A stretch of 64,000 nucleotides of DNA, from NCBI RefSeq assembly GCF_029626225.1, contig NZ_JARUBP010000001.1:3100001-3164000 (forward strand), read 5' to 3'. The DNA is from Asanoa sp. WMMD1127 (lineage in GTDB: Bacteria; Actinomycetota; Actinomycetes; Mycobacteriales; Micromonosporaceae). Position 1 is the stretch's first letter, and each line of letters opens with the position of its first letter. The position numbers and the translations under genes are program-made. The notes beneath the pieces are model-generated. The model searched no databases and had not been told where the DNA came from. It worked only from the letters and a program-made list of their open reading frames with translations. Shown in pieces: positions 25,374 through 42,865 of the stretch.

Positions 25374-25847
25374 TCAGCGGAGGGCGCCGGCCAGGCCGGC
25401 GGGGAGTTTGGCCAGGAGGTCCCAGAGGTGGGGTTGGGCGGTCGCGGCGTCGGCGATCACCGGGTCCGTCGTGGCGAGTAGGGCCAGGTGGCGGGCGGCG
25501 TGTGCGGCTACCGCCTCCGCGTCGACGCGTGGGGGTGACGGCGCCAGTGCGGCGCCGCCGATGACCATGCGGTCGGGGGACAGCGGCCGCGTCGAGACCG
25601 GCGCGGGATCGGGTAGGGCCGCGTAGGTCAGCACCACCGACTCGTCGGCGAAGCGCCAGCTCGTCGAGTGGAGGGTCGCGCCGGGGGTGCACAGGGTCAG
25701 GCCCGACAGGTGTAGGGCCAGGTCGTCCGGGTGCACCGCCGCGGGCAGCGCGGCGGACAGCGTGCGGTAGCGCAGCGCGCCGTCGGCCGCCGAGAGGAGG
25801 ACCACCTCCACGATCGTCACGTGTTGCATCTTCGCGGTTGTTGCCAC
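25374..25847 (-). CDS. conserved hypothetical protein
   Basis: Up to 157 residues; an ATG at 25829 (MQHVTIVEVVLL) is an equally good start. There is no signal peptide or membrane helix. The sequence has good actinobacterial codon bias and reads as a compact alpha/beta domain followed by an Ala-rich helical tail with several histidines (AAHAARHLALL). I do not recognise a domain of known function. It is divergent from the ECF42-like sigma gene; a dyad lies between the two starts. Confidence 0.6.
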   Translation of the reverse strand: MATTAKMQHVTIVEVVLLSAADGALRYRTLSAALPAAVHPDDLALHLSGLTLCTPGATLHSTSWRFADESVVLTYAALPDPAPVSTRPLSPDRMVIGGAALAPSPPRVDAEAVAAHAARHLALLATTDPVIADAATAQPHLWDLLAKLPAGLAGALR

Positions 25848-25860
25848 AGTTGTGCAACAA
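25838..25860. promoter_or_regulatory. dyad between hypothetical gene and sigma gene
   Basis: TTGTTGC (25838-25844) and its exact complement GCAACAA (25854-25860) with a 9-nt spacer. The right arm lies about ten bases before the sigma gene's TAGGTT box. Possible operator. Confidence 0.35.
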
Positions 25861-25869
25861 GACAGGCGA

Positions 25870-25875
25870 TAGGTT
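25870..25875 (+). promoter_or_regulatory. leaderless-type -10 box (TAGGTT) for sigma factor gene
   Basis: TAGGTT ends seven bases before the GTG at 25883; no ribosome site is visible. Confidence 0.5.
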
Positions 25876-25882
25876 GGTCGGC

Positions 25883-27685: not shown

Positions 27686-28009
27686 ATGCCCACCGACCAG
27701 CTCAGCGCCGTCTTCGGGGCACTCGCCGACCCGACGCGCCGCGCGATCCTCGAGCGACTCACCCAAGGCGACGCGACCGTGGGCGAGATCTGTGCGCCGT
27801 TCGCGATGTCGCAGCCGGCGATCTCCCGCCACCTGCGGGTTCTGGAGGAGGCGGGCCTGATCTCCCGGAGCCGAAAGGCGACCGCGCGCCTCAGCCACCT
27901 CGAGGCCGAGCCGCTGCGGGCGGCCACGGGCTGGCTCGTGGCCTACCGCGACTACTGGGCCAGGAGCTACGACCGGCTCGACGAGCTGCTGGCCAGGATG
28001 GAGGACTAG
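27686..28009 (+). CDS. ArsR family transcriptional regulator
   Basis: A 107-residue winged-helix repressor (FGALADPTRRAILERL, then the recognition helix MSQPAISRHLRVLEEAG). It has no clear metal-binding cysteines, as in the ArsR branch that travels with SRPBCC (AHSA1) proteins. It heads a three-gene operon with the SRPBCC and SDR genes. A 28-bp dyad directly before the start suggests autorepression. Confidence 0.92.
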   Translation: MPTDQLSAVFGALADPTRRAILERLTQGDATVGEICAPFAMSQPAISRHLRVLEEAGLISRSRKATARLSHLEAEPLRAATGWLVAYRDYWARSYDRLDELLARMED

Positions 28010-28477: not shown

Positions 28478-29233
28478 ATGTTGCTCCAAGGAAAGAACAC
28501 CATCGTGTACGGCGGCGCCGGCGCGATCGGCGGCGCGGCGGCAAGGGCGTTCGCCCGCGAGGGCGCCACGGTGCACCTGGTCGGCCGCACGCGCGCCACG
28601 CTGGACGAGGTCGCCGGCGACATCCGGTCGGCCGGCGGCGCCGCCGAGGTCGCCGCGTTCGACGTCTTCGACGAGTCGGCGGTCGACGCCCACGCGCAAT
28701 CGGTGGTCGACGGCTTCGGCAGCCTCGACGTCTCGTTCAACGCGATCGCCCACCCCTACGCGTTCGGCAAGCCCGTGGTCGAGATGGACTACGCCGACCT
28801 TGAGCGCGACGTCACGAGCCGGCTCCGGGCGTTCTGGCTGACCACCAAGGCGGCCGCGCCGCACATGATCCGGCAGGGCGCCGGCGTGGTGCTCGCGTTC
28901 GGTGGCGACGGGCCGCCTACGCCGAACCTCGGTGGCCTGCAGGTGTCGCTCGGCGCCGTGGAGATGCTGCGCCGGATCCTGGCCTGTGAGCTGGGACCAC
29001 AGGGCATCCGGGTGCTCACGCTGCAGACCGGCGGCGTGCCGGAGTCGTTGCCTGGCGACATGCCCCAGGAGGCGCGCGAGGAGATCGCCCGCGGCCTGGT
29101 CGAGCCGACGATGCTGGGTCGGGCCGCGACCCTCGCCGACGTGGGCAACGCGGCGGCCTTCGCGGCCTCCGACTGGGCCCGCGCGCTGACTGCGACCAAG
29201 CTCAACCTGACCGTCGGCGCGGTCGTCGACTAG
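28478..29233 (+). CDS. SDR-fold protein lacking the catalytic Tyr/Lys
   Basis: A 251-residue short-chain dehydrogenase-like Rossmann protein. The nucleotide loop is present (GGAGAIGGAAARAF, 12-25), as is an NA(I/G)-type strand (FNAIAHP). The usual YxxxK active site aligns with LQVSL (154-158), so both the tyrosine and the lysine are missing. It may bind NAD(P) or a ligand without classic dehydrogenase chemistry. It is third in the ArsR-SRPBCC-SDR operon; the stop overlaps the convergent IclR gene. Confidence 0.88.
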   Translation: MLLQGKNTIVYGGAGAIGGAAARAFAREGATVHLVGRTRATLDEVAGDIRSAGGAAEVAAFDVFDESAVDAHAQSVVDGFGSLDVSFNAIAHPYAFGKPVVEMDYADLERDVTSRLRAFWLTTKAAAPHMIRQGAGVVLAFGGDGPPTPNLGGLQVSLGAVEMLRRILACELGPQGIRVLTLQTGGVPESLPGDMPQEAREEIARGLVEPTMLGRAATLADVGNAAAFAASDWARALTATKLNLTVGAVVD

Positions 29234-30015
29234 GAGACGCGGCGGGTGGCGGCCGGGAGGTCCGCGGAGATGCGGGCCGCAGCGGCGAGCAGCGGGGGCA
29301 CCAGGTCGCGGCGGATGGCCTCGAGCGTGGTGCGGCTGGCGGCGGTCGACACGTTCACCGCCGCCACCACCCGGCCGGCGCGGTCGCGGATCGGCGCCGC
29401 CACCGCCCGCAGGCCCTCCTCCAGCTCCTGGTCGACCAGGGCCCAGCCCTGGGCGCGTACGCGTTGCAGCTCGGTCCGCAGCGCCGTCACCCCGCTGATC
29501 GTGCGCGGCGTGAGCCGGCCGATGGCCACGGTGTCGAGATAGGCCGCCAGCTCGTCGTCGGGCAGGCCGGCCAGGAGGACCCGACCCATCGAGGTCGCGT
29601 ACGCCGGGAAGCGGGTGCCCACGTTGATCGCCACGGTCATGATGCGGGACGTCGGCACCCGGGCCACGTAGACCACGTCCGGTCCGTCGAGGACCGACAC
29701 CGACGACGACTCGTTGACCTCGGCGACCAGCGCCTCGAGGTGCACCTCGGCCACCTCGGGCAGGGACAGGCTCGACAGGTACGCGTAGCCGAGCTCCAGC
29801 ACCCGCGGGCTCAGCGAGAACAGCCGCCCGTCGGTGCGCACGTACCCGAGGTCCATCAGGGTCAGCAGGAACCGGCGCGCGGCCGCCCGGGTCACGCCGG
29901 TGGCCGCGGCGACCTCGCTGAGCGTCAGCTCCGGGTGGGCGCGGTCGAAGGCCCGGATCACCGCCAGGCCGCGTTCGAGCGACTGCACGAAGTCCGCCGA
30001 CCGCACCGTCGTCAC
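29230..30015 (-). CDS. IclR family regulator of the protocatechuate cluster (PcaR/PobR-like)
   Basis: A 261-residue IclR protein: N-terminal winged helix (LTLSEVAAATGVTRAAARRFL, about 30-50) and a C-terminal effector domain that in PcaR/PcaU/PobR relatives binds beta-ketoadipate, protocatechuate or 4-hydroxybenzoate. It is the last gene of the leftward pca operon, with a GTGA overlap with pcaC and GAGGAGG as ribosome site. It probably acts at the two 17-bp palindromes in the 34.35-34.54 kb control region and so governs both divergent operons. Confidence 0.9.
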   Translation of the reverse strand: MTTVRSADFVQSLERGLAVIRAFDRAHPELTLSEVAAATGVTRAAARRFLLTLMDLGYVRTDGRLFSLSPRVLELGYAYLSSLSLPEVAEVHLEALVAEVNESSSVSVLDGPDVVYVARVPTSRIMTVAINVGTRFPAYATSMGRVLLAGLPDDELAAYLDTVAIGRLTPRTISGVTALRTELQRVRAQGWALVDQELEEGLRAVAAPIRDRAGRVVAAVNVSTAASRTTLEAIRRDLVPPLLAAAARISADLPAATRRVS

Positions 30016-30389
30016 GACGCCTCCTCGAGGCCGAGCTCCGCCAGTACGCGCTGGGCGGTCGCGAACGCGGTGTTGGCGGCCGGTGCGCCGGCGTAGACCG
30101 CGGTGTGCAGCAGCACCTCGCGGATCTCCGTCGGCGTGACGCCCTGGCCGATCGCGGCCCGCACGTGCATCGCCAGCTCGGCCGACGCGTGCTGGCTGGC
30201 CAGCAGCGCGATGGTGACCAGGCAGCGGGTGCGCCGGTCGAGCTCCGGGCGGCTCCACACCGCGCCCCAGGCGTGCGCGGTGACGTGCTCCTGCCAGGGC
30301 GCGCTGAACGCGGTCGCCGCCGCGGCGGCCCGGTCGACGTGCGCGTCGCCGAGCACGGCGCGGCGCACCGCGGCGCCGTCGTCAGCCAT
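30012..30389 (-). CDS. pcaC: 4-carboxymuconolactone decarboxylase
   Basis: A 125-residue AhpD-like all-helical enzyme that decarboxylates gamma-carboxymuconolactone to beta-ketoadipate enol-lactone. Diagnostic stretches are WGAVWSRPELDRRTR and the late GVTPTEIREVLLHTAVYAG. Many actinobacteria fuse PcaC to PcaD as PcaL; here PcaC stands alone, and no pcaD is present in the window. It overlaps pcaB by 8 bp and iclR by 4 bp. Confidence 0.93.
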   Translation of the reverse strand: MADDGAAVRRAVLGDAHVDRAAAAATAFSAPWQEHVTAHAWGAVWSRPELDRRTRCLVTIALLASQHASAELAMHVRAAIGQGVTPTEIREVLLHTAVYAGAPAANTAFATAQRVLAELGLEEAS

Positions 30390-31551
30390 CGGTCCTCCGG
30401 GACGTGTGTCGGGCCAGCGCCAGGTCGACGAAGTGGCCGGCGTTGCCCACCGGATCGACGGCGCCGGGTTCGGCCTGCCAGCCGGCCCGGTCGAGGTTGG
30501 CCCGCATCACATCGGGGCGCACCACCAGGCCGGACAGGCAGGCATCGAGCGCGGCGGCGGCCGAGCCGACCGCGACCAGCAGCTCGCGCAGGGGCCACCA
30601 CTCGGCCTGCCAGCCGCCGGCGCCCCGCTGGTGCTCCTGCACGGCGCCGGCCAGCAGCGTCGCGACGAGGCCGGGCGCCTGCGCGGCGGCCGCGAGCGCG
30701 CTGACGGCGGCGACCGGGTTCTGCTTGTGGGGCATGGCGCTCGAGCCGCCTGGTGCGCCCTCCGCGACCTCGCCGACCTCGTTCTGGGCGAGCAGGGTGA
30801 CGTCGCGGGCCGGTTTGCCGAGCGCGCCGGCCGTCACGCCGAGCGTGCCCGCGAGGAGGCCGATCCGGCTGCGTTCGGTGTGCCACGGCAGCTCGGGCGC
30901 GTGCAGGCCGAGCCGGTCGGCGAAGTCGGCCAGCGCCGCCGGAGGCAGCCCGGCCAGCGTGCCCACCGGCCCGCCGAGCTGCGCGGTGGGGGCGAAACCG
31001 GCCAGCGCGGCGGCGGCCGCGTCGAGCCCGGTCAGCCAGCCGGCCGCGGTCAGCCCGAACGTGGTCGGCAGGGCCTGCTGGAGCAGCGTACGGCCGATCA
31101 TCGGGGTGTCCCGGTGCCGCCGGGCCAGCTCGGCGGCGGCGTCGGCCGCGCCGTCCACATCGGACGAAATCGCGGCCACCGCCCGGCGGGCGACGAGCAT
31201 CGTGGCCGTGTCGAGCACGTCCTGGCTGGTGGCGCCGGCGTGCACGTGCGGGCGGACGGCCTCCGGCAGGGCGGCCCGGATCGCGGCGACCAGCGGCACG
31301 ACCGGGGTCGCGTGCGCGGCGGCGGCCCGGCCCAGCTCGGCCGGGTCGGGGTCGAGGTCGGCGCAGGCCGCCGCGATGGCCGCGGCCGAAGAGGCGGGGA
31401 TGACGCCCGCGGCCGCGCCGGCGTCGGCCAGCGCCGCCTCGGTGTCGAGCATCGCCCGCACCCAGGCGTCGTCGGCGACCGTGGCGGGGACCGCCCCGCG
31501 GGCGAGGATCCCGTCGAACAAGCCCTCAGAAGGTGAAGAAGACGGTCTCAT
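30382..31551 (-). CDS. pcaB: 3-carboxy-cis,cis-muconate cycloisomerase
   Basis: A 389-residue member of the fumarase/aspartase superfamily, converting 3-carboxymuconate to gamma-carboxymuconolactone. The superfamily signature GGSSAMPHKQNPV is intact. The ATG at 31551 lies within the last codons of pcaG (26-bp overlap). Family length is usually 350-450, so it is complete. Confidence 0.93.
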   Translation of the reverse strand: MRPSSSPSEGLFDGILARGAVPATVADDAWVRAMLDTEAALADAGAAAGVIPASSAAAIAAACADLDPDPAELGRAAAAHATPVVPLVAAIRAALPEAVRPHVHAGATSQDVLDTATMLVARRAVAAISSDVDGAADAAAELARRHRDTPMIGRTLLQQALPTTFGLTAAGWLTGLDAAAAALAGFAPTAQLGGPVGTLAGLPPAALADFADRLGLHAPELPWHTERSRIGLLAGTLGVTAGALGKPARDVTLLAQNEVGEVAEGAPGGSSAMPHKQNPVAAVSALAAAAQAPGLVATLLAGAVQEHQRGAGGWQAEWWPLRELLVAVGSAAAALDACLSGLVVRPDVMRANLDRAGWQAEPGAVDPVGNAGHFVDLALARHTSRRTDG

Positions 31552-32080
31552 CGTCGCCCTGCAGCGTGATGTCGAAGGCGTAGCCGTCGGCGGTCTCCTT
31601 CGCCACCAGGGTCGCCTGCCGCACCGGGTCGATGCGGACCAGCACCGGGTCCTCGGCGTTGGCGGGCTCGTCCGGGAAGTAGACCCGGGTGACCAACCGG
31701 TCGAGCAGGCCGCGGGCGAGCACGGTGACGTCGATGTGCGGCGCCTGCGGGACGCCGTCGGGACCCGGCACGCGGCCGGGCCGGACCGTGCGGATCGCGT
31801 AGCGGCCGTCGGCGTCGGTCGGGCAGCGGGCGAAGCCACGGAACCCCGGCGTCCGCCGGGCGCCGCGTGGGTCGTCCGGATGGTCGAACCGCCCGTCCGG
31901 GTCGGCCTGCCACGTCTCCACGAGCGCGTCGGGCACCGGATCGCCGGCCCCGTCGACGATCACGCCGCGCAGCCAGAACGCGCCGGGCGTGCCCTCGCCG
32001 ACGGCGTCGGGGCCGTCGGCCCACGGCAGGCCGAGGCCCAGGAAGGGCCCGACCGTCTGGGACGGTGTGCAGCCGATCAT
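31526..32080 (-). CDS. pcaG: protocatechuate 3,4-dioxygenase alpha subunit
   Basis: A 184-residue structural subunit of the intradiol dioxygenase. It begins TPSQTVGPFLGLGLPW and shares the intradiol beta-sandwich with PcaH but lacks the full iron-ligand set, as expected for alpha. With PcaH it opens protocatechuate to 3-carboxymuconate. The ATG overlaps the pcaH stop (ATGA). Confidence 0.93.
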   Translation of the reverse strand: MIGCTPSQTVGPFLGLGLPWADGPDAVGEGTPGAFWLRGVIVDGAGDPVPDALVETWQADPDGRFDHPDDPRGARRTPGFRGFARCPTDADGRYAIRTVRPGRVPGPDGVPQAPHIDVTVLARGLLDRLVTRVYFPDEPANAEDPVLVRIDPVRQATLVAKETADGYAFDITLQGDDETVFFTF

Positions 32081-32793
32081 TCGTCCTCCATCGGCGTCGC
32101 CGCGCGCCCGCGCAGCACGATGTCGAAACGGTAGGCCAGCGACCACTCGGGCGTCGTCGCGTCGAGGTCGAAGGCAGCCACCATGCGTTGCCGGGCGGCC
32201 GGATCCCGGACCGAGTTGAAGATGGGGTCCTGGCCGAACAGCGGGTCGTTCGGGAAGTACATCTGGGTCACCAGGCGCTGCGTGAACGCCACGCCGAACA
32301 GCGAGAAGTGGATGTGCGCGGGGCGCCACGCGTTGTGGTGGTTGCGCCACGGGTACGCGCCGGGCTTGATCGTGACGAACCGGTAGCGCCCCTCGCCGTC
32401 GGTCATCGCCCTCCCCACCCCGGTGAAGTTGGGGTCCAGTGGCGCGGGGTGGCGGTCGACGGCGTGCCGGTAGCGGCCGGCCGCGTTGGTCTGCCAGATC
32501 TCGACGAGCGTGTCGCGCACGGGCCGCCCGTCACCGTCGAGCACGCGGCCGAACACCTCGATCCGCTCGCCCTGTGGCTCGCCCTCGTGCTGGCGGGTCA
32601 GGTCGTGGTCGAGCGGGCCGACGCGGTCATGGCCGAGCACGGGCCCGGTCAGCTCGGTGAGCCCCTGCGGCAGCACGAGCAGCGGCTGGCGCGGGCTGCG
32701 CAGCCGGGTCGAGCCGTACTCCGCCGACGCGAGCGGGGGTTGCTCGTGCTCGGGATGGCTCCGGTACGGCGCGAGTGGCTTCCAGTCAGGCAA
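32077..32793 (-). CDS. pcaH: protocatechuate 3,4-dioxygenase beta subunit
   Basis: A 238-residue catalytic subunit holding the non-haem Fe(III). The ligand regions are visible: tyrosines in RYRF...PGAYPW and the two histidines in RPAHIHFSLFG. It cleaves the ring of protocatechuate between the two hydroxyl-bearing carbons. It overlaps pcaJ by 8 bp and pcaG by 4 bp. Confidence 0.95.
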   Translation of the reverse strand: MPDWKPLAPYRSHPEHEQPPLASAEYGSTRLRSPRQPLLVLPQGLTELTGPVLGHDRVGPLDHDLTRQHEGEPQGERIEVFGRVLDGDGRPVRDTLVEIWQTNAAGRYRHAVDRHPAPLDPNFTGVGRAMTDGEGRYRFVTIKPGAYPWRNHHNAWRPAHIHFSLFGVAFTQRLVTQMYFPNDPLFGQDPIFNSVRDPAARQRMVAAFDLDATTPEWSLAYRFDIVLRGRAATPMEDE

Positions 32794-33550
32794 CGCCGCC
32801 TCCTTTCAGACGCGTGAGCGACCGCAGCGCGGTCAGCTCGGCGGTGGTGGGTGGCTCCGTGACGGCCGGGTCGGCACGGACCGCCAACGGCCAGCCGGTC
32901 GCGGCGATGACGTCCGGCACGCGTACGCCCGGGTGGATGCTGGTCAGCGTCAGCTCGCAGGTCTCGGGGTCGGGCTCGAGCACGCCGAGGTCGGTGATCA
33001 CCCGGGTCGGCCCACGGCCGCGCAGACCGAGCGACGCCCGGTGGCCGGGACCGTCGCCGAAGCCCAGCGAGGTGACGAACGCGAGCCGGTCGACCAGGAT
33101 GCGCGGCCGATGCCGGACGATCACGATGGTCTCCCGGCAGGACGCGGCGATCTCCGGTGCGCCGCCCGCGCCCGGCAGCCGCACGGTCGGGTTGCGGTAG
33201 TCGCCGATCACGGTCGTGTTGATGTTGCCGTGCCGGTCGAGCTGCGCCGCGCCCAGGAAGCCGACGTCGACCCGGCCGGGCTGCAGCCAGTAGTTGAAGA
33301 TCTCGGGGACGCCGACCACCGCGTCGGCCGTCTCACCCAGCTCACCGTCGCCTATGGACAGTGGCAGCGAGCTCGGCTTGGCGCCGATCGTCCCGGACTC
33401 GTAGATCAGCGACAGGTCGGGGGAGCAGGTCCGGCGGGCGAGGTTGGCCGCGGTGCTGGGCAGGCCGATGCCGACGAAGCACGACGTGCGGCCGGCCAGC
33501 GCCCGGGCGGCGGTGACGGTCATGATCTCGTCGGCGGTCCAGTCGCTCAT
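32786..33550 (-). CDS. pcaJ: 3-oxoadipate CoA-transferase subunit B (CatJ/PcaJ type)
   Basis: A 254-residue CoA-transferase beta subunit. The ESGTIG catalytic-glutamate stretch (YESGTIGAKP) and GNINTTVIGDY are present. With the preceding subunit it transfers CoA from succinyl-CoA to beta-ketoadipate. The pair resembles the CatI/CatJ (glutaconate-CoA-transferase-like) enzymes more than short classical PcaI/PcaJ. Coupled by ATGA to subunit A. Confidence 0.9.
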   Translation of the reverse strand: MSDWTADEIMTVTAARALAGRTSCFVGIGLPSTAANLARRTCSPDLSLIYESGTIGAKPSSLPLSIGDGELGETADAVVGVPEIFNYWLQPGRVDVGFLGAAQLDRHGNINTTVIGDYRNPTVRLPGAGGAPEIAASCRETIVIVRHRPRILVDRLAFVTSLGFGDGPGHRASLGLRGRGPTRVITDLGVLEPDPETCELTLTSIHPGVRVPDVIAATGWPLAVRADPAVTEPPTTAELTALRSLTRLKGGGVA

Positions 33551-34350
33551 GCGGCGGTCACCTCGTCGAGCCAGCGCCCGAACGTCTCCCGGTCGCGACT
33601 GATCGGGTCCCAGGCCTGGTAGTAGTCGTTGTCGCGGTCGTAGTAGCCCTGCGCGTAGGACGGGTGGGCGCCGCGCGGCACCTGGGCGACGGCGGTGACC
33701 ACCCAGCTGGGCAGCACGGTCGCGCCGGGCCGGGGGTCGAGCTCGTCGACGATCTCCTCGACCGTGACCAGCGACCGGCGGGCGGCCAGCACCGCCTCCT
33801 TCTGCACGCCGGTGATGCCCCACAGCTGCACGTTGCCCCGCCGGTCGGCCCGCTGCGCGTGGATCACCGCGACGTCCGGGTTGAGCGCGGCGACGGCGGT
33901 GAGCACCTCGCCGGTGAACGGGCAGGTGACCGTGCTGACCGTGGTGGTGTGCCGGGCGATGTCGGTGCCGACGTAGCCGCGCAGCACCGCGAACGGCAAC
34001 CCGGAGGCGCCGGCGACGTAGCGGTTGGCCATGCCGGCGTGGCTGTGCTCCTCGATCTCGATCGGCCGGGGCCAGCCGTGCTCGACGGCGTCGCGGAACC
34101 GGTGCAGCGAGCCGACGCCGGGGTTGCCACCCCAGGAGAACACCAGGCGGGCCGCGCAGCCGGCGCCGATCAGCTGGTCGTAGACGATGTCCGGAGTCAT
34201 CCGGATCAGCGTCAGATCGCGGCGGCCCTGGCGGATGATCTCGTGGCCGGCCGCAACCGGGATGAGATGGGTGAAGCCCTCCAACGCGACCGCGTCGCCG
34301 TCGTGGACCAGCTCCGTCACACCCTCGGCGAGGCTGACGAGTTCGGCCAT
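33547..34350 (-). CDS. pcaI: 3-oxoadipate CoA-transferase subunit A (CatI/PcaI type)
   Basis: A 267-residue CoA-transferase alpha subunit and first gene of the leftward pca operon. Blocks ALEGFTHLIPVAAGHEI, DLTLIRMTPDIVYDQLIGAG and FSWGGNPGVGSLHRFRDA match what I know of CatI. It works with subunit B on beta-ketoadipate. The start at 34350 is about 39 bases from the inferred transcript start, and a palindromic operator sits in the leader. Confidence 0.9.
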   Translation of the reverse strand: MAELVSLAEGVTELVHDGDAVALEGFTHLIPVAAGHEIIRQGRRDLTLIRMTPDIVYDQLIGAGCAARLVFSWGGNPGVGSLHRFRDAVEHGWPRPIEIEEHSHAGMANRYVAGASGLPFAVLRGYVGTDIARHTTTVSTVTCPFTGEVLTAVAALNPDVAVIHAQRADRRGNVQLWGITGVQKEAVLAARRSLVTVEEIVDELDPRPGATVLPSWVVTAVAQVPRGAHPSYAQGYYDRDNDYYQAWDPISRDRETFGRWLDEVTAA

Positions 34351-34361
34351 GCGGCTCCCAG

Positions 34362-34380
34362 TCTGTGCGCTATGCGAACA
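34362..34380. promoter_or_regulatory. candidate IclR operator, pca side
   Basis: TCTGTGCGCTATGCGAACA. The inner 17 bp (TGTGCGC-TAT-GCGAACA) are a palindrome with one mismatch. Located just downstream of the leftward promoter; a second copy at 34479-34497 differs at one base. Confidence 0.7.
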
Positions 34381-34395
34381 ACCGTTCAGCGACTC

Positions 34396-34425
34396 AGCCT
34401 AGGAACCGCAGCGCATGAGCGTCAA
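34396..34425 (-). promoter_or_regulatory. sigma-70-type promoter of leftward pca operon
   Basis: On the minus strand TTGACG (34425-34420), 18-nt spacer, TAGGCT (34401-34396). The expected start near 34389 lies about 9 bases before the palindromic operator. Confidence 0.65.
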
Positions 34426-34437
34426 CAACGAGAAGCA

Positions 34438-34467
34438 TTGACGTAGGGCGTCGCGCGGTTCTAGGTT
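34438..34467 (+). promoter_or_regulatory. sigma-70-type promoter of rightward transport/pobA operon
   Basis: TTGACG (34438-34443), 18-nt spacer, TAGGTT (34462-34467). A mirror image of the leftward promoter; the two -35 boxes are 12 bp apart. The operator copy begins about 5 bases after the expected start. Confidence 0.65.
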
Positions 34468-34478
34468 TCCCGAGTACA

Positions 34479-34497
34479 TCTGTGCGCTATCCGAACA
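34479..34497. promoter_or_regulatory. candidate IclR operator, transporter side
   Basis: TCTGTGCGCTATCCGAACA, identical to the 34362 copy except one base and in the same orientation. It lies downstream of the rightward promoter and before the binding-protein gene. Confidence 0.7.
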
Positions 34498-34541
34498 CTC
34501 TCGCCCCCTCTCCGCTCACCCCTGACGTGGATGGAGTTCTG

Positions 34542-35507
34542 ATGCGTCGCCCCTTGCTTGCCCTGCTCACCGCGGCCGCCTTACTGGCCACCGCCGCCTG
34601 CGGTGACTCGTCCGACGACAACACCGCGCAGCCCGGCGGGGCCGCGCAGCCCGACAAGGTCAACGCCGGCGTCATCGCGATCCTCGATGTCGCGCCCATC
34701 TACCTCGGCAAGGAGAAGGGCTTCTTCAGCAAGCGCAACATCGACCTGACGCTGACCACCGCGCAGGGCGGCGCCGCGATCGTGCCGGCCGTGCTCTCCG
34801 GCGAATACCAGTTCGGCTTCAGCAACGCGGTCTCGCTGCTGCTGGCCAAGTCGCAGAACGCGCCGCTGAAGGTGGTCTGCAACGGCAACAACTCGACGGG
34901 CGTCGCGGAGGACTTCGCCGGCCTGTTCGTCAAGCCCGACAGCCCGATCCAGTCGCCCAAGGACCTCGCCGGCAAGACGGTCGCGGCCAACACGCTGAAG
35001 AACATCGTGGACACCAGCGTGCGCGCGTCGGTGAAGAAGGACGGCGGCGACCCCGCGGCCGTCAAGTTCACCGAGCTTCCGTTCCCGGAGCAGGTCGGCG
35101 CGCTGCAGGCGGGCCGGGTCGACGCCATCTTCGTGGTCGAGCCGTTCCAGCAGGCCGCCGTGGCCGCGGGCATGCGCAAGATCGCGTCCAGCTACGTCGA
35201 CGCCGCGCCGAACCTGACCGTCGCGATGTACTTCACCTCCACCAAGCTGGCCGGCGAGAACCCCGACCTCGTCGCGCGGTTCACCGAGGCGATGAAGGAG
35301 TCGCTGGCGTACGCCGACGCGCACAGCGACGAGGTGCGCGACATCATCGGCACGTACACGAAGATCGAGGAACCGGTGCGGGCGAAGATGACGCTGCCCA
35401 AGTGGCCGGCCGAGATCAACACGGCGGCGGTCGACGCGCTGGCCGAAGCCGCGGTCGCCGACGGCCTATTGACCCAGAAGCCGGACGTGGCGGGGCTGCT
35501 GCCCTGA
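34542..35507 (+). CDS. NitT/TauT-type ABC transporter substrate-binding lipoprotein
   Basis: A 321-residue lipoprotein with lipobox and lipidated Cys20 (LLATAAC), then an NMT1/THI5-like periplasmic-binding fold (about 40-320). It should capture an organic acid for import; given its neighbours, an aromatic acid such as 4-hydroxybenzoate or a substituted benzoate is the best guess. I start at ATG 34542, where GGAG lies eight to nine bases upstream, not at 34482. The TGA overlaps the first permease ATG. Confidence 0.9.
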   Translation: MRRPLLALLTAAALLATAACGDSSDDNTAQPGGAAQPDKVNAGVIAILDVAPIYLGKEKGFFSKRNIDLTLTTAQGGAAIVPAVLSGEYQFGFSNAVSLLLAKSQNAPLKVVCNGNNSTGVAEDFAGLFVKPDSPIQSPKDLAGKTVAANTLKNIVDTSVRASVKKDGGDPAAVKFTELPFPEQVGALQAGRVDAIFVVEPFQQAAVAAGMRKIASSYVDAAPNLTVAMYFTSTKLAGENPDLVARFTEAMKESLAYADAHSDEVRDIIGTYTKIEEPVRAKMTLPKWPAEINTAAVDALAEAAVADGLLTQKPDVAGLLP

Positions 35508-36322
35508 TGGTCGCTGTCGCGGCGCGCGCTCCTCGGGTGACCGGCCGGCGGTTCCGGTCGGTCACCCTGGGCGTGCTCGGCCTGCTGGGGTTCGCGCTGC
35601 TGCTAGAGGTGGCGCCGCGGGTCGGCGTGGTGCCGATCGAGTTCGCGCCGCCCACCAGCCAGATCCTGGTCACCCTGGCCGAGCAGCTCGGCCAGTCGTC
35701 GTTCTGGGCGGCGCTGGTCGACACCCTGACCACCTGGGCCTACGGGCTGCTGATCGCGGTGGTCGCCGGCACCGTCGTCGGCGTGCTGCTCGGCTCGGTG
35801 CCCGTCCTGCGCACCGCGACCGCCACGACCATCGAGTTCCTGCGGCCGATCCCGTCGGTCGCGCTGATCCCGCTGGTCATCGTCCTCTATGGACCGACGA
35901 TCCGGTCGACGCTGGTGCTGGTCGTCTACGCCGCGTTCTGGCAGATGCTCATCCAGGTGGTGCACGGCGTCGTCGACGTCGACCCGATCGCCCGCGACAC
36001 CGCCCGGTCGTTCCGGCTCGGCCCGTGGGCCCGCATCCGTTACGTGATCTGGCCCAGCGCCCTGCCCTACGTGATGACCGGCCTGCGGCTGGCCGCGGCG
36101 GTCGCGCTGATCCTGACGATCACCGGCGAGCTGGTCATCGGCTCACCCGGTCTCGGCAAGGAGATCGACAACGCACAGCAGAGCAACGCGGTCCGCATCG
36201 TGTACGCCCTGATCGTGGTCACCGGCATCCTCGGCGTCCTGATCAACGTCGTCATCCGGCAGGTCGAACGCCGCGTGCTGGCCTGGCATCCGGCCGCCCG
36301 AGCCGAGACGGTCGTGCGATGA
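35507..36322 (+). CDS. ABC transporter permease (SsuC/TauC type) 1
   Basis: A 271-residue permease with about six membrane helices and the binding-protein-dependent loop (DTARSFRLGPWARIRYVIWP). It forms, probably as a heterodimer with the next gene product, the membrane channel of the aromatic-cluster importer. Coupled TGATG start and ATGA end. Confidence 0.9.
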   Translation: MVAVAARAPRVTGRRFRSVTLGVLGLLGFALLLEVAPRVGVVPIEFAPPTSQILVTLAEQLGQSSFWAALVDTLTTWAYGLLIAVVAGTVVGVLLGSVPVLRTATATTIEFLRPIPSVALIPLVIVLYGPTIRSTLVLVVYAAFWQMLIQVVHGVVDVDPIARDTARSFRLGPWARIRYVIWPSALPYVMTGLRLAAAVALILTITGELVIGSPGLGKEIDNAQQSNAVRIVYALIVVTGILGVLINVVIRQVERRVLAWHPAARAETVVR

Positions 36323-37092
36323 GGGTCGTCTGGCGGGTGCTGCTCACGGTCGGTCTGCCGATCGTGCTCGTGGCGGCGTGGTGGTTCGGCTCGGCCGGCA
36401 GCCAGGACTTCTACTGGCCGTCGCTGTCGACCATCGTCGACGCCGCCGTGCGCACCTGGACGTGGGAGATGCTCCAGCAGCAGGTGCTCCCGTCCCTCTG
36501 GCGGCTGCTGGTGGGCTACGCCGTCGCGGTCGTCGTGGGCGTCGCCCTCGGCGTGCTGATCGGCACGTTCCGCTCGGTCCGGTCGCTGCTGGAGCCCGTG
36601 CTGGAGTTCCTGCGCGCGTTCCCACCGCCGGTGCTCGTGCCGGCCGCCATCCTGCTCGCCGGGATCGGCGACCGCACCAAGATCCTGGTCATCGTCTTCG
36701 GCTGCGTCTGGCCGGTGCTGCTCAACACCATCGAGGGCGTACGCGGCCGTGACGAGGTGCTCAGCGACACGTGCCGCACCTACCGCGTCACCGGGCTGCT
36801 CCGGCTGCGCCACCTCGTGCTGCGCGCCGCCAGCCCGCAGATCGTCACCGGTGCCCGGCAGGCCCTGCCGCTGGCCATCATCCTGATGGTGATCAGCGAG
36901 ATGATGGCCGCCAACGAGGGCCTCGGCTTCACGGTCCTGCAGTTCCAGCGGGGTTTCCAGATCCCCGAGATGTGGAGCGGCGTGCTCCTGCTCGGGCTGA
37001 TCGGCATTGTGCTCTCCCTGCTGTTCAGAGTGGCCGAGCGGTCGCTGCTCGGCTGGTACCACGGTCAGCGCGCCGGACAACGGGAGTGGTGA
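36319..37092 (+). CDS. ABC transporter permease (SsuC/TauC type) 2
   Basis: A 257-residue permease paralogous to the previous one, with about six helices and the EAA-type loop near SDTCRTYRVTGLLRLRHLVL. The presence of two different permeases suggests a heterodimer; single-permease NitT/TauT systems are more usual. The ATG overlaps the preceding stop, and its TGA overlaps the ATPase ATG. Confidence 0.9.
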   Translation: MRVVWRVLLTVGLPIVLVAAWWFGSAGSQDFYWPSLSTIVDAAVRTWTWEMLQQQVLPSLWRLLVGYAVAVVVGVALGVLIGTFRSVRSLLEPVLEFLRAFPPPVLVPAAILLAGIGDRTKILVIVFGCVWPVLLNTIEGVRGRDEVLSDTCRTYRVTGLLRLRHLVLRAASPQIVTGARQALPLAIILMVISEMMAANEGLGFTVLQFQRGFQIPEMWSGVLLLGLIGIVLSLLFRVAERSLLGWYHGQRAGQREW

Positions 37093-37880
37093 TGCTCGAA
37101 GTCAGGAACCTGCACAAGGTGTACGACGGGCACGGCCGGCGGGTGACCGCGGTCGGGGACCTCACCTTCACCGTCCCCGAGGGACAGTTCGCCTGCGTGG
37201 TCGGGCCGTCCGGCTGCGGCAAGACCACGCTGCTGCGGGTGCTGGCCGGGCTGCTGCCGGCGACCTCGGGCGAGGTCAACGTGCGGGGCAAGCCCGTCAC
37301 CGCGCCGCCGCCCGACCTGGCCGTGGTGTTCCAGGAGTACGGCCGGAGCCTGTTCCCCTGGTTGCGGGTCCGGGCCAACGTCGAGCTGCCGCTGAAGGCA
37401 CAGGGGATGGGTCGGGCGCAACGGCGGACGCTGGCCACCGAGGCGCTGGCCGCCGTGGGACTGTCCGATGTCGACAACGCGTACCCGTGGCAGCTGTCCG
37501 GTGGCATGCAGCAGCGGGTCGCGATCGCGCGGGCCATCGCGTACCAGCCGAAGGTGCTGTTGATGGACGAGCCGTTCGCGGCGGTCGACGCGCAGACCCG
37601 GGCCGACCTCGAAGACCTGATCCGGTCGGTCTGGCAGCGGCTGGGCGTGACGCTGCTGTTCGTTACGCACGACATCGACGAGGCGGTCTATCTCGGCCAG
37701 CGGGTGATCGTGTTGTCCGCGTCGCCGACCACGGTCGCCGAGGACCTGACCATCGACCTGCCCGCCGATCGCGACCAGTTGAGCACGCGGTCCGACCCGC
37801 GGTTCACCGAGTTGCGCGGCCAGGTCTACGCCCGCATCCAGAAGGTGAAGACACCGGCTTCGGAGGGAGCACCGGCATGA
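37092..37880 (+). CDS. ABC transporter ATP-binding protein (SsuB/TauB type)
   Basis: A 262-residue importer ATPase: Walker A GPSGCGKTT (38-46), Q-loop VFQEYG, signature LSGGMQQR, Walker B VLLMDEPFAAVD and switch THDIDEAV. It energises the two permeases encoded just before it. Coupled TGATG start; stop overlaps the aldehyde dehydrogenase ATG. Confidence 0.94.
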   Translation: MLEVRNLHKVYDGHGRRVTAVGDLTFTVPEGQFACVVGPSGCGKTTLLRVLAGLLPATSGEVNVRGKPVTAPPPDLAVVFQEYGRSLFPWLRVRANVELPLKAQGMGRAQRRTLATEALAAVGLSDVDNAYPWQLSGGMQQRVAIARAIAYQPKVLLMDEPFAAVDAQTRADLEDLIRSVWQRLGVTLLFVTHDIDEAVYLGQRVIVLSASPTTVAEDLTIDLPADRDQLSTRSDPRFTELRGQVYARIQKVKTPASEGAPA

Positions 37881-39334
37881 CGTTCTTCGACCCCGCCGCC
37901 TGGGACGGCAAGGTTTTCACCGGTGACTGGTCCACGCCGTCCGGCGGGTCCACGCCGATCCTGGAGAAGGCGACCGGCGAGGCGCTGGGCCGCACGGGAG
38001 TGGCCGACGCGGCCGACGTCGCCGGGGCCGCCGCGCTCGCCGCCGCCGCACAGCGCCCTTGGGCGGCCACCTCGTTCGAGGAGCGGGCCGCCGTGCTGCG
38101 CCGGGCCGGCCAGCTGATCGAGGCCAATGCGGCCGAGCTGCGCGACTGGGTGGTCCGCGAGACCGGCGCCGTGCCGGGGCTGGGCGACTTCGCGGTCGGC
38201 GTGGCGACCCAGGAGTGCTACGAGGCGGCCGCGTTGGCGCACCGGCCGGCGGGCGAGATCCTGCAGAGCAACCAGCCCCGGCTGAGCCTGCTCAAGCGGG
38301 TCCCGGTCGGCGTGGTCGGCGTCATCTCGCCGTTCAACGTGCCGCTGATCCTGTCGATCCGTTCGGTCGCGCCGGCCCTGGCGCTGGGCAACGCGGTCGT
38401 GCTCAAGCCCGACGTGCGTACGCCGGTCAGTGGTGGGTTCGCCATCGCCCGGGTGTTCGCCGAGGCCGGCCTCCCGCCCGGGTTGCTGCACGTGCTGCCC
38501 GGCGAGGCCGAGGCGGGCGCCGCGCTCGTGGCCGAGCCGGCGATCCGCGTGGTCTCGTTCACCGGCTCCAGCGCCACCGGGCGCCGGGTGGCGGAGCTGG
38601 CCGCGCGGCACCTCAAGCGCGTCCACCTGGAGCTGGGCGGCAACTCGGCGCTGATCGTGCTCGACGACGCCGACCTCGAGCGGGCGGTCTCCGCCGGCGC
38701 CTGGGGCTCGTTCCTCCACCAGGGCCAGATCTGCATGACCGCCGGGCGGCACCTCGTCCACGAGCGGATCGCCGACGACTACGTGGCCGCGCTGGCCGCG
38801 CACGCCGACCACCTGCCGGTCGGCGACCCGTTCACCGGTCAGGTGGCGCTCGGGCCGCTGGTCGACGAGGGCCAGCGCGACAAGGTGCACGCGCTGGTCA
38901 CCGCGACGGTCGACGCGGGCGCCAAGCTCGCCGCGGGCGGCACGCACGAGGGGCTGTTCTACCGGCCGACGGTGCTCGACGAGGTGCGCACCGACATGCC
39001 GGCGTACGCCGAAGAGGTGTTCGGTCCGGTCGCGCCGGTCGTCCGGTTCGGCTCGGTGGACGAGGCCGCCGCGCTGGCCGCCGACACGGGCTACGGCCTG
39101 TCGCTGAGCATCCTGACCGGCGACGCGATGCGCGGGCTCGCGCTGGCCGAGCGGATCCCGACGGGCATCGTGCACATCAACGACCAGACGGTCAACGACG
39201 AGGCGGTGGCCCCGTTCGGCGGGGTCCTCGACTCCGGCACCGGCGCGCGGTTCGGCGGCGCCGGCAACCTCGACGCGTTCACCGAGCAGCGCTGGATCAC
39301 GCTGCGCGGTGACATCCCGGCCTACCCGTTCTGA
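37877..39334 (+). CDS. aldehyde dehydrogenase, benzaldehyde dehydrogenase type
   Basis: A 485-residue NAD(P)-dependent aldehyde dehydrogenase. Catalytic Cys286 (GQICMTA) and general-base Glu252 (ELGGNSA) are intact, and the length and VGVVGVISPFNVPL block match the benzaldehyde/vanillin dehydrogenase group. It would oxidise an aromatic aldehyde to the benzoate that PobA uses, for example 4-hydroxybenzaldehyde. ATGA coupling to the ABC ATPase gene. Confidence 0.9.
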   Translation: MTFFDPAAWDGKVFTGDWSTPSGGSTPILEKATGEALGRTGVADAADVAGAAALAAAAQRPWAATSFEERAAVLRRAGQLIEANAAELRDWVVRETGAVPGLGDFAVGVATQECYEAAALAHRPAGEILQSNQPRLSLLKRVPVGVVGVISPFNVPLILSIRSVAPALALGNAVVLKPDVRTPVSGGFAIARVFAEAGLPPGLLHVLPGEAEAGAALVAEPAIRVVSFTGSSATGRRVAELAARHLKRVHLELGGNSALIVLDDADLERAVSAGAWGSFLHQGQICMTAGRHLVHERIADDYVAALAAHADHLPVGDPFTGQVALGPLVDEGQRDKVHALVTATVDAGAKLAAGGTHEGLFYRPTVLDEVRTDMPAYAEEVFGPVAPVVRFGSVDEAAALAADTGYGLSLSILTGDAMRGLALAERIPTGIVHINDQTVNDEAVAPFGGVLDSGTGARFGGAGNLDAFTEQRWITLRGDIPAYPF

Positions 39335-39354
39335 CCCCCTGTGAGGTGCGAAAG

Positions 39355-40476
39355 ATGACGTTGCGCGACACGCCGCCGTTCCGGGCCGATCACGTGGGCA
39401 GCCTGCTGCGCCCGGAGCGCCTGCTGAAGGCGCGGGCCGACCGGGCCGCGGGGACCATCTCGGCGCAGGAGCTGCGGGCCGTCGAGGACGACGCGATCCG
39501 CGAGGTCGTGCGGATGCAGCGCGACGTCGGGCTCCGGTCGGCCACCGACGGCGAGTTCCGGCGTACGTCCTGGCACATGGACTTCATCTACCAGCTCGGT
39601 GGCATCCACAGCACCGACGAGAAGATCCGGGTGCACTTCCACAACAAGGAGGGCGACCTCGACTTCACCTCGGCGGCGCTGGCCGTCGACGGACCGGTGC
39701 GCCTCGAGAAGACCATCTTCGGTGACGACTTCGCCTTCTTGAAGTCCACGGTGGACGACGACGTGACCGCGAAGCTGACCATCCCGTCACCGAGCATGGT
39801 GCACTACCGGGGCGGCAAGGCGTCCATCGACCCGGCCGTCTATCCCGACGAGGAGCAGTTCTGGACCGACCTGTCGGGCGCGTACGCCGCCCAGGTCGCC
39901 GCCGTCGCCGAGCTCGGCTGCCGCTACCTCCAGCTCGACGACACCAGCCTGGCCTACCTCAACGACCCCGAGCAGCGCCGGCAGCTCACCGAGCGCGGCG
40001 ACGACGCGGAGCACCAGCACCTGCGCTACATCAAGCAGATCAACGCCGCGATCCAGGACCGGCCGGCGAGCCTGTCGGTCACCACGCACATGTGCCGCGG
40101 CAACTTCCGGTCGTCGTGGGCGGCCGAGGGTGGCTACGACTTCGTCGCCGAGGCGCTCTTCTCCGAGCTCGCCGTCGACGGTTTCTTCTGCGAGTTCGAC
40201 GACGAGCGCTCCGGCGGCTTCGCGCCGCTGCGGTTCGTGCCGCCCGGCAAGATGGTCGTCCTCGGGCTGGTCACCACCAAGCGGGGCCAACTGGAGTCCA
40301 AGGACGCGCTGAAGCGGCGGATCGACGAGGCGGCCAAATATGTGCCGCTGGAGCAGCTCTGCCTCTCACCGCAGTGCGGCTTCTCGTCGACGGTCGAGGG
40401 CAACGCGCTCAGCTACGACGAAGAGGTGGCCAAGCTCCGGCTGATCGTCGAGACCGCGGAAGAGGTGTGGGGCTGA
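39355..40476 (+). CDS. MetE C-terminal-like (cobalamin-independent methionine synthase II) methyltransferase
   Basis: A 373-residue TIM-barrel protein like the catalytic half of MetE. The thiol-activating zinc ligands are visible: His245 and Cys247 (THMCRGN) and Cys341 (SPQCGFSS). It lacks the N-terminal half of true MetE, so housekeeping methionine synthesis is unlikely. In this operon it may take a methyl group from an O-methylated aromatic or methyl donor to a thiol, or handle a thiol adduct; this is inference. A start at GTG 39346 is possible. It sits 20 bp after the aldehyde dehydrogenase gene and 2 bp before pobA. Confidence 0.85.
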   Translation: MTLRDTPPFRADHVGSLLRPERLLKARADRAAGTISAQELRAVEDDAIREVVRMQRDVGLRSATDGEFRRTSWHMDFIYQLGGIHSTDEKIRVHFHNKEGDLDFTSAALAVDGPVRLEKTIFGDDFAFLKSTVDDDVTAKLTIPSPSMVHYRGGKASIDPAVYPDEEQFWTDLSGAYAAQVAAVAELGCRYLQLDDTSLAYLNDPEQRRQLTERGDDAEHQHLRYIKQINAAIQDRPASLSVTTHMCRGNFRSSWAAEGGYDFVAEALFSELAVDGFFCEFDDERSGGFAPLRFVPPGKMVVLGLVTTKRGQLESKDALKRRIDEAAKYVPLEQLCLSPQCGFSSTVEGNALSYDEEVAKLRLIVETAEEVWG

Positions 40477-40478
40477 CC

Positions 40479-41648
40479 GTGGAGACGCGCACGCAGGTCG
40501 GCATCATCGGGGCCGGCCCGGCCGGCCTGGTGCTCGCCCACCTGCTGCGGCAGCGCGGCATCGACTGTGTCGTGCTGGAGCGCCAGTCCCGGTCCTATGT
40601 GGAAGCCCGGATCCGGGCCGGGGTGCTCGAGCACGGCACGGTCGACCTGCTCACCTCGCTCGGGCTGGCCGACCGCCTGCACCGTCAGCGGATGGTGCAC
40701 CACGGCATCGAGCTGCTCTTCGCGGGCGAGGCCCACCGGATCCCGCTGACGGAGCTGGCCGGTCGGGAGATCACCATCTACGGGCAGCACGAGGTCGTCA
40801 AGGATCTGATCGCCGCCTGGGACGGGCCGCTGCACTTCTCGGTCTCCGACGTCCAGCTGGCCGACCTCACGGGCGAGCCGATCATCTCCTATGTGGACGT
40901 CGACGGCGTCGCGCGGCGGCTGCGGTGCGACGTGGTGGCGGGGTGCGACGGGTTCCACGGCGTGTCCCGGGCCGCTATCCCGGCCGGCGTGCTCACGGCG
41001 CACGAGCGCGACTATCCGCACGCCTGGTTGGGCATCCTGGCCGACGCGCCGCCTTCGTCCGAGGAGCTGATCTACGCGCACAGCTCCCGGGGCTTCGCGC
41101 TGCACAGCATGCGCTCGCCCACGGTGACCCGGATGTATCTCCAGGTGCGGCCCGACGAGAACCTCGACGAGTGGCCCGACGACCGGATCTGGGCCGAGCT
41201 GCGGGCCCGGCTCGCCCGGTCCGACGCCGGCTGGCAGCTCGCCGACGGCCCGATCCTCGAACGGTCCGTGGCGGCCATGCGCAGCTTCGTCGTCTCGCCG
41301 ATGCAGCACGGTCAGCTGTTCCTGGCCGGCGACGCGGCCCACATCGTGCCGCCGACCGGCGCCAAGGGGCTCAACCTGGCGGTGGCCGACGTCAAGGTGC
41401 TGGCCGACGCGCTCACCGGCTGGTACGCGACCGGCGACCGCTCCGGCCTCGACGCCTACTCCGAGACCTGCCTGCGCCGGGTGTGGCGGGTCCAGCACTT
41501 CTCGTGGTGGATGACCTCGATGCTGCACCCGACCGGCGACGACCCGTTCGACCTGGCGTTGCAGCTCTCCCAGCTGCGCTACGTCACCTCCTCGCGCGCC
41601 GCGGCGACCTCGCTGGCGGAGAACTACGTGGGTTTCCCGTTCCCGTGA
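40479..41648 (+). CDS. pobA: 4-hydroxybenzoate 3-monooxygenase
   Basis: A 389-residue single-component FAD monooxygenase that hydroxylates 4-hydroxybenzoate to protocatechuate, the substrate of PcaGH encoded divergently. FAD-binding GAGPAGLVLAHLL is at the N-terminus, and GDAAHIVPPTGAKGLNLAVAD is the conserved second FAD motif of this family. The length equals the family norm (about 390). The GTG start is two bases after the preceding stop; GTGA overlap with the MFS gene. Confidence 0.94.
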   Translation: METRTQVGIIGAGPAGLVLAHLLRQRGIDCVVLERQSRSYVEARIRAGVLEHGTVDLLTSLGLADRLHRQRMVHHGIELLFAGEAHRIPLTELAGREITIYGQHEVVKDLIAAWDGPLHFSVSDVQLADLTGEPIISYVDVDGVARRLRCDVVAGCDGFHGVSRAAIPAGVLTAHERDYPHAWLGILADAPPSSEELIYAHSSRGFALHSMRSPTVTRMYLQVRPDENLDEWPDDRIWAELRARLARSDAGWQLADGPILERSVAAMRSFVVSPMQHGQLFLAGDAAHIVPPTGAKGLNLAVADVKVLADALTGWYATGDRSGLDAYSETCLRRVWRVQHFSWWMTSMLHPTGDDPFDLALQLSQLRYVTSSRAAATSLAENYVGFPFP

Positions 41649-42865
41649 CGGGTCGCCTGCGCACCGCCGGCTGGCTGGCCGCCGTCCTGCTCGCCGCGCT
41701 CAACATGCGGCCCGCCATCGCGTCCGTGCCACCGATCGTCGACGCCGTGCGCGACGCCCTCGGGCTCTCCTCCTCCGCCGCCGGCGTGCTCACCTCCGTG
41801 CCGGTCGTCTGCATGGGGCTGTTCGCGCCGGCCGCGGCGTGGGCGGCGGCCCGCTGGGGCACGGGGCGGACGATGGCGCTCGCGCTGGCGCTGCTGGCCG
41901 TGGCCACCACCGTGCGGCCGCTGGCCGGGGTGGGCGTGCTCTACACCGCGACCGTGCTCGCCGGCGTCGCCATCGCGGTCGGCGGCGCGCTGATGCCGGC
42001 GCTCGTGCGGTCCCGCTTCCCGGACCGGGTCGGTCCCGTCACCGGTCTCTACACGACCGCGCTGATCTCCGGCGCGCTGATCGGGGCCGGTGGCACCGAG
42101 CCGCTGCGGGCCTGGCTCGGTGACTCGTGGCGGGCGGCGCTGGCGATCTGGGCCCTGCTGGCCGTGCTGGCGCTGGTTCTCTGGCTCGTGGTGCGGCCGG
42201 CAGGGCCCGGTGCCCTGTCGCCGGCCGCCGGCCCCGCCGTGGCGGGTGGTTGGTCGCCCTGGCGGGATCGCGGCGCCTGGATGGTCACCCTCTACATGGG
42301 AGGGCAGTCGCTGCTCTACTACGCCCCGTTGGCCTGGCTCGCCGCGCGCTACACGGAGCTCGGCTGGTCGGCGGCGCGGGCCGGCGGGCTGCTCGCCCTG
42401 TTCAGCGCCACCCAGGTCGTCTCCGCGCTGGTGGCGCCGGCCCTGGCCCGGCGTGACCCGCGGCCGGCGATCGTCGTCAGTTTGCTGGTCGCGGTCGCCT
42501 GCCTCGGACTGATCGGCGTGGCTCCGCTGGCGGCGCCGGAGCTGTGGGCGGCCTTGCTCGGGGTCGGCGTCGGCGCCAACTTCTCGCTCGCGCTGACCGT
42601 GGTCGGCCAGATCGCGCCGACGCCCGCGGACACGCCGCGGGCGTCCGGGATGGCGTTCTTCGTCGGCTACCTGCTGGCCGCGGCGGGACCGGTCGCGGTG
42701 GGCTTCCTGCACGACCTGACGGGTGGCTTCCGGGCGCCGTTCCTGGCCCTGGTCGGCTTCGGCGTCGCCGTGCTCGCATTCGGCTGGGCCGCCGGCTCCG
42801 CCGTAAAGGAACGGTCCGTTCCTATCGCTTTCCGCATAGGAACGGACCGTTCCCAACACGCCTAA
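41645..42865 (+). CDS. MFS transporter (CynX/NimT type)
   Basis: A 406-residue major facilitator with about twelve hydrophobic helices, of the cyanate/nitroimidazole-like branch. As last gene of the aromatic operon it may import or export an aromatic acid. The final 20 residues (VKERSVPIAFRIGTDRSQHA) are encoded by a doubled DNA palindrome and look unlike a transporter tail, which suggests the original 3' end was altered. GTGA coupling to pobA; 4-bp convergent overlap with crcB. Confidence 0.88.
   Translation: MTGRLRTAGWLAAVLLAALNMRPAIASVPPIVDAVRDALGLSSSAAGVLTSVPVVCMGLFAPAAAWAAARWGTGRTMALALALLAVATTVRPLAGVGVLYTATVLAGVAIAVGGALMPALVRSRFPDRVGPVTGLYTTALISGALIGAGGTEPLRAWLGDSWRAALAIWALLAVLALVLWLVVRPAGPGALSPAAGPAVAGGWSPWRDRGAWMVTLYMGGQSLLYYAPLAWLAARYTELGWSAARAGGLLALFSATQVVSALVAPALARRDPRPAIVVSLLVAVACLGLIGVAPLAAPELWAALLGVGVGANFSLALTVVGQIAPTPADTPRASGMAFFVGYLLAAAGPVAVGFLHDLTGGFRAPFLALVGFGVAVLAFGWAAGSAVKERSVPIAFRIGTDRSQHA
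42808..42853. repeat. doubled TetR-like palindrome forming an 18-bp inverted repeat
   Basis: GGAACGGTCCGTTCCTAT (42808-42825), 10-nt loop, then its exact complement (42836-42853). Each arm itself holds a 15-bp near-palindrome GGAACGG-T-CCGTTCC, of the kind bound by TetR-family dimers. It lies inside the end of the MFS gene, between convergent genes, and could also act as a terminator hairpin. Confidence 0.75.

Follow-up and report, generated by a model that had tools for sequence, protein, structure and literature searches.

Predicted PcaR operators and back-to-back promoters in the divergent control region between the pca and uptake/pobA operons of Asanoa

PcaU and PobR of Acinetobacter activate transcription from upstream positions. 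For PcaR of C. glutamicum, the motif GTTCGC-N3-GCGAAC has been described (PMC8222616). PcaR of R. opacus represses the pcaH and pcaI promoters, and the same source counts some IclR proteins as activators, two of R. opacus among them (PMC9582017). Here, we analyzed a region in which a pca operon and an uptake/pobA operon diverge. The whole 64-kb stretch of DNA analyzed is referred to as the window, and coordinates are given within it. The sequence comparisons described below suggest that this region serves a PcaR regulon as its divergent control region, in which PcaR would repress both promoters until a pathway intermediate releases it; we give this reading a probability of roughly 85%. Most likely, one PcaR-type repressor would hold both back-to-back promoters shut. 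No description of this arrangement was found in the literature titles and abstract openings that were searched.

The intergenic region (34351-34541) is bounded by the start of pcaI at 34350 on the minus strand and by the ATG of a binding-protein gene at 34542 on the plus strand. The genes concerned are the following.

30012-34350, minus strand: pca operon, in the order pcaI, pcaJ, pcaH, pcaG, pcaB, pcaC, then pcaR (NCBIfam profiles)
29230-30015, minus strand: pcaR, which closes the pca operon and encodes an IclR-type regulator (TIGR02431, 339.1 bits, cut-off 284.75)
34542-42865, plus strand: divergent operon for an NMT1-like binding protein, two permeases, an ATPase, an aldehyde dehydrogenase, a MetE-like protein, PobA and an MFS transporter (Pfam/NCBIfam)
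27686-28009, plus strand: ArsR-type regulator, about 0.5 kb from the sigma-factor-like gene
25838-27160, plus strand: sigma-factor-like protein with a DUF6596 domain

The pcaR gene is placed with beta-ketoadipate pathway genes, directly after pcaIJHGBC, and its probable GTG start codon overlaps the stop codon of pcaC. According to the NCBIfam profiles, pcaH and pcaG were above their cut-offs, and pcaB (352.9 versus 355.75) and pcaC (152.7 versus 155.7) were narrowly under theirs. Since pcaI (42.7 bits) and pcaJ (32.8 bits) gave weak family matches far under the NCBIfam cut-off, these two names rest on such matches together with the operon context. PobA, a 4-hydroxybenzoate 3-monooxygenase, was over the cut-off of PRK08243 and under that of TIGR02360. 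When the reading frames of the rightward operon were checked, the gaps between genes did not exceed 11 nt; because these gaps are small, 34542-42865 was taken to be one operon. The window belongs to a genome of 7.97 Mb, and the nearest named loci were those of Asanoa hainanensis and A. siamensis, with 94% identical PcaI. The order of the pca genes was identical in two loci (L025 and L026) and largely kept in many further ones. The MetE-like protein, of the PRK06520 subfamily, is encoded at 39346-40476, between the aldehyde dehydrogenase gene and pobA, and its gene adjoins pobA also in L025, L026, L030 and L096. In the window, pcaC overlaps the end of pcaB at 30382-30389; in relatives, L030 and L044 for example, the pcaB and pcaC matches are separated by several hundred bases to about 1 kb. 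Because pcaB and pcaC overlap here and the best pcaD candidate is 1.27 Mb off, the operon may have lost its lactonase gene.

Within the intergenic region, two copies of a 19-mer were found on the plus strand, TCTGTGCGCTATGCGAACA at 34362-34380 and TCTGTGCGCTATCCGAACA at 34479-34497. At up to 3 mismatches, the 19-mer had 2 matches in the whole 64 kb, with 0.03 expected, and 2 matches were obtained in none of 100 shuffles. The inner 17 bp had been described in an earlier note on this DNA as an imperfect palindrome present in two copies, and both positions and pairing were verified, with pairing by eye at 6 of 8 positions for the left copy and at 5 of 8 for the right one. The same note called the control region a mirror image, which is true of the promoters only, the operators being direct repeats, 117 bp apart.

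34364-34380, minus strand: inner palindrome of the predicted PcaR operator at the pcaI promoter (TGTTCGCATAGCGCACA in the pcaI direction), 25.7 bits
34481-34497, plus strand: inner palindrome of the predicted PcaR operator at the uptake/pobA operon, 23.1 bits

These scores come from a symmetric matrix of 17 bp, made from 80 loci minus Asanoa (78 loci, 66 of which gave a site). Training used the pcaI side only, and divergent-side copies lay outside the training region. With this matrix, the window copies ranked first (25.7 bits) and second (23.1 bits) in the 64 kb, and the next place had 14.3 bits; none of the 653 other 191-nt stretches of the window reached 20 bits. Both GTTCGCATAGCGCAC and GTTCGGATAGCGCAC fit the operator consensus GTNCG-N5-6-CGNAC that PMC8222616 gives for the IclR group. 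That the repeated 19-mer arose by chance, or was recently copied and has no function, is extremely improbable, as its half-sites are conserved across many genera while the middle bases vary freely; no evidence in favor of that reading was found.

The two predicted promoters lie back to back between the operators, at the places given in the earlier note.

34420-34425, minus strand: -35 box TTGACG of the leftward (pcaI) promoter; TTGAC is conserved in pcaI-side units
34396-34401, minus strand: -10 box TAGGCT of the leftward promoter, at operator offset -21 to -16, where relatives mostly have TACGTT
34438-34443, plus strand: -35 box TTGACG of the rightward promoter; TTGAC is conserved in divergent-side units
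34462-34467, plus strand: -10 box TAGGTT of the rightward promoter; CTAGGTT occurs in the other 5 distinct genus loci too

Thus, TTGACG-N18-TAGGCT reads leftward and TTGACG-N18-TAGGTT rightward, with an 18-nt spacer in both and a 12-bp gap (34426-34437) between the -35 boxes. From the -10 box to the 17-mer, there are 15 nt on the left and 13 nt on the right. A generic sigma-70 scan detected neither promoter, and each -10 box fits TATAAT at 3 of 6 positions only. For comparison of operators, TTGAC and spacing, 168 distinct loci were used after the removal of 21 duplicates from 189. In 97 of 148 pcaI-side units and 68 of 82 divergent-side units, the inner operator had TTGAC 42-47 nt ahead of it; the remaining 51 and 14, respectively, showed no exact TTGAC at this distance. 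In 11 control windows of equal width, which leave out offsets -48 to -53, the counts were 0-5 on the pcaI side and 0 on the divergent side. Among units with TTGAC, the commonest sequence at offset -21 to -16 was TACGTT on the pcaI side (57/97); on the divergent side, AACGTT (26/68) and TACGTT (16/68) were found. Because these -35 and -10 elements are conserved in relatives, both promoters are supported despite the miss in the generic scan. The PcaR model is also supported, because the near-fixed distance from -35 box to operator is kept on both sides.

Each operator is preceded by a conserved half-site, which the earlier note overlooked.

34384-34387, minus strand: GAAC, the extra half-site on the pcaI side, shared by all 6 distinct genus loci
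34474-34477, plus strand: GTAC, the extra half-site on the rightward side, shared by all 6 distinct genus loci

This offset was the only one of 56 tested per side at which all six genus loci carried G[ATC]AC. The same motif was present there in 92 of 97 pcaI-side units and 67 of 68 divergent-side units with TTGAC. With a conserved external G(A/T)AC beside each palindrome, these sites may resemble the PcaU/PobR-type operator. In many relatives, a second, outer palindrome is located 19 bp upstream of the inner one, and its upstream arm overlaps the -10 box. An outer palindrome of at least 5 bits was found in 84 of 97 pcaI-side and 60 of 68 divergent-side units with TTGAC. The outer 17-mers of the window had -12.9 and -14.2 bits, and two complete tandem palindromes at 18-22 nt were not present. 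The outer palindrome thus appears to have decayed in the window's genus, its downstream arm being the half-site that remains on each side. Because this arm persists beside the inner palindrome, there are three half-sites per promoter in the window. We also considered a broader scheme, whose chances we judge to be even. Family-wide, the -10 box would lie within the outer predicted operator arm (TACGTTCG) at both promoters, forming a four-palindrome switch embedded in the promoters; in Asanoa, with the outer palindromes decayed to single half-sites, the -10 boxes would have become TAGGCT and TAGGTT, the promoter would have been uncoupled from the operator, and PcaR would act on a three-half-site operator at each promoter.

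Conservation was surveyed in 300 genomes of the window's bacterial family. A PcaI match was found in 114 of them, and 109 loci were used (the window and 108 others); five matches at 57-60% identity and a second match in genome G091 were dropped. The 109 loci were counted with duplicates, and some are from the same species as loci that trained the matrix. A site of at least 10 bits was located within 180 nt of pcaI in 100 of the 109. The 17-mer, whose absence from orthologous regions the earlier note had held to speak against its proposal, was therefore present there, beside pca operons. The full divergent double unit, defined as two sites of at least 5 bits that are separated by 80-200 bp and are both preceded, at a distance of 42-47 nt, by an exact TTGAC, was found in 61 of the 109 loci. 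Among the nine loci without a near site, six carry a tandem pair roughly 1.2 kb upstream, ahead of a pobA that itself precedes pcaI. No operator site was detected within 1.7 kb in the family loci L143, L185 and L212. In seven loci (L113, L127, L135, L137, L152, L169 and L197), pobA is upstream of pcaI in the same direction, and in the last six of these, the operator pair is found before pobA and not before pcaI.

The IclR protein encoded at the end of the pca operon belongs to the PcaR/PcaU/PobR family TIGR02431, with 339.1 bits against a cut-off of 284.75, and the operators fit the group consensus; the earlier note had named an IclR protein and IclR-like operators. Its view that this was the only local regulator does not stand, since the ArsR-type and sigma-factor-like genes are nearby, though outside both operons. 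Three arginines of the recognition helix (42, 46 and 47) were invariant in 63 of 63 PcaR sequences, a set that includes the window and may hold duplicates. By spacing alone, they would match Arg56, Arg60 and Arg61 of PobR, which PMC8222616 reports as important for DNA binding or function.

We then compared the presence of a PcaR of at least 55% identity with that of a site near pcaI in 72 loci, 8 of 80 having been dropped because they showed no PcaR and their contig ended no more than 7 kb downstream. Both were present in 57 loci and neither in 6; PcaR alone was found in 5 and the site alone in 4. The association was significant (Fisher p = 0.0005, with shared ancestry ignored), and 9 of the 72 loci were discordant. 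All five loci with PcaR only carry a site of at least 15 bits further upstream. In L042, L076, L079 and L095, the site is present and there is no PcaR of 55% identity in the stretch covered. These data bear on whether a different IclR protein of the genome, and not the local PcaR, binds both sites. The genome has nine TIGR02431 matches including the local PcaR, and a second strong PcaR-like protein reaches 271.6 bits, under the cut-off. Such a binder is very unlikely, given that the local PcaR alone exceeds the family cut-off and is encoded within the operon concerned, and that site and local PcaR tend to co-occur.

In the model that we favor, PcaR made from the last pca operon gene would bind, at each promoter, the inner palindrome together with the half-site just upstream, spanning about +1 to +26 of each transcript. 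Bound PcaR would prevent RNA polymerase from settling at, or escaping from, both promoters. On release of PcaR by a pathway intermediate, both sides would be turned on together, the rightward operon providing uptake, aldehyde oxidation and 4-hydroxybenzoate hydroxylation and the leftward one protocatechuate cleavage and CoA transfer. PcaR would also restrain its own production, its gene being part of the leftward operon. Position +1 is conventionally seven bases past the -10 box, which places the expected starts near 34389 and 34474. Measured from these, the three half-sites cover about +3 to +26 at the leftward promoter and about +1 to +24 at the rightward one. The earlier note had put an operator just past each expected start, and the comparison with relatives supports this; it had also proposed a roadblock at both start sites. 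A polymerase at the promoter covers the start region that the half-sites overlap. Because of this overlap, we infer that exclusion of RNA polymerase, or blocked escape, is likelier than a roadblock to elongation and fits the geometry better.

As to membership among the actinobacterial PcaR repressors, the operator position is the one feature that speaks for a repressor role of the window PcaR. Activators usually bind further upstream. The operators, in units with a conserved -35 box (97/148 and 68/82), lie over or downstream of the -10 box, and this makes it quite unlikely that PcaR is an activator in the manner of Acinetobacter PcaU and PobR, or has a dual role, at both promoters. The PcaR family does include activators, and the motifs of PcaU, PobR and HmgR also bear an extra half-site (PMC8222616); R. 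opacus PcaR, on the other hand, represses (PMC9582017).

Looping of the promoters by PcaR tetramers that contact both operators at once is likewise unlikely, although less so. IclR proteins are able to bind in tetrameric form (PMC8222616), and the 117 bp between the window operators correspond to 11.14 turns. A Rayleigh test at 10.5 bp gave p = 0.012 on 47 sequence clusters, which are not independent, and p was 0.27 on 29 unique distances; periods from 10.0 to 11.0 bp did about as well or better in the cluster test. The operator distance ranged from 110 to 179 across 66 distinct loci, a set outside which L053, L064 and L069 (103 bp) fall, and it is 140 bp, or 13.33 turns, in another Asanoa genome. 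Looping by helical phase was set aside, the phasing tests having given no convincing support.

To return to repression by PcaR at both promoters, its extent was examined in the whole genome with the strict pattern TGTKCGN5CGMACA. Three places were found, two of which are the window operators. The third is C1:5648382-5648398 (L003 1501-1517), with 25.5 bits; because the reversed control pattern also matched once per strand, this place was treated as unproven. Inspection of the reading frames beside it revealed no link to the pathway, and one of them may encode a member of the enolase superfamily. A wider PcaR regulon was not retained, since the strict pattern adds this one unproven place only. 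The best pcaD candidate (C1:4401990, over the cut-off) and the best pcaF candidate (C1:6349117, under it) are both far away, and in the 3.7-4.2 kb around them, no convincing operator was found, the scores being 6.3 bits for pcaD and 10.4 and 6.5 bits for pcaF. Around the PcaR-like genes (L214-L221, 3.6-3.7 kb each), there was no site of at least 9 bits in 6 of 8; L219 has sites of 11.1 and 13.6 bits, and L221 has one of 14.9 bits. The proposal that one regulator governs uptake, hydroxylation and cleavage is supported by the comparison with relatives. Probably only part of the pathway is under the switch, because the pcaD and pcaF candidates lie elsewhere without a convincing operator.

The array is a real and well-conserved operator-promoter arrangement, and the control is of a standard, known kind; the modest new part is its predicted anatomy, with three half-sites here and the -10 box inside the operator in relatives. 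If the model is true, a single regulator would govern the uptake of aromatic acids together with hydroxylation and cleavage of their ring throughout a large family of soil actinobacteria, and dozens of natural variants would be available for comparing promoter, operator and spacing. The array can then serve regulon annotation and aromatic-acid sensors, and it leaves the general picture of IclR protein action unchanged.

Compared with known systems, the locus resembles that of C. glutamicum PcaR in having an IclR regulator of pca genes and an operator of the GTTCGC-N3-GCGAAC type (PMC8222616), and that of R. opacus PcaR in that the regulator gene is inside the operon controlled (PMC9582017). 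It shares with Acinetobacter PcaU and PobR a palindrome of the GTNCG-N5-CGNAC type and may also share their additional half-site (PMC8222616); unlike theirs, the window sites lie at and past the expected start. As in the tandem IclR operators for which PMC8222616 gives 18-22 nt between centres, many relatives have outer and inner palindromes 19 bp apart, whereas the window's genus retains one outer half-site per side. In contrast to C. glutamicum and R. opacus PcaR, the divergent partner here is an ABC-uptake/aldehyde dehydrogenase/pobA operon with its own predicted operator, and because of this operator, uptake and hydroxylation would be joined to ring cleavage.
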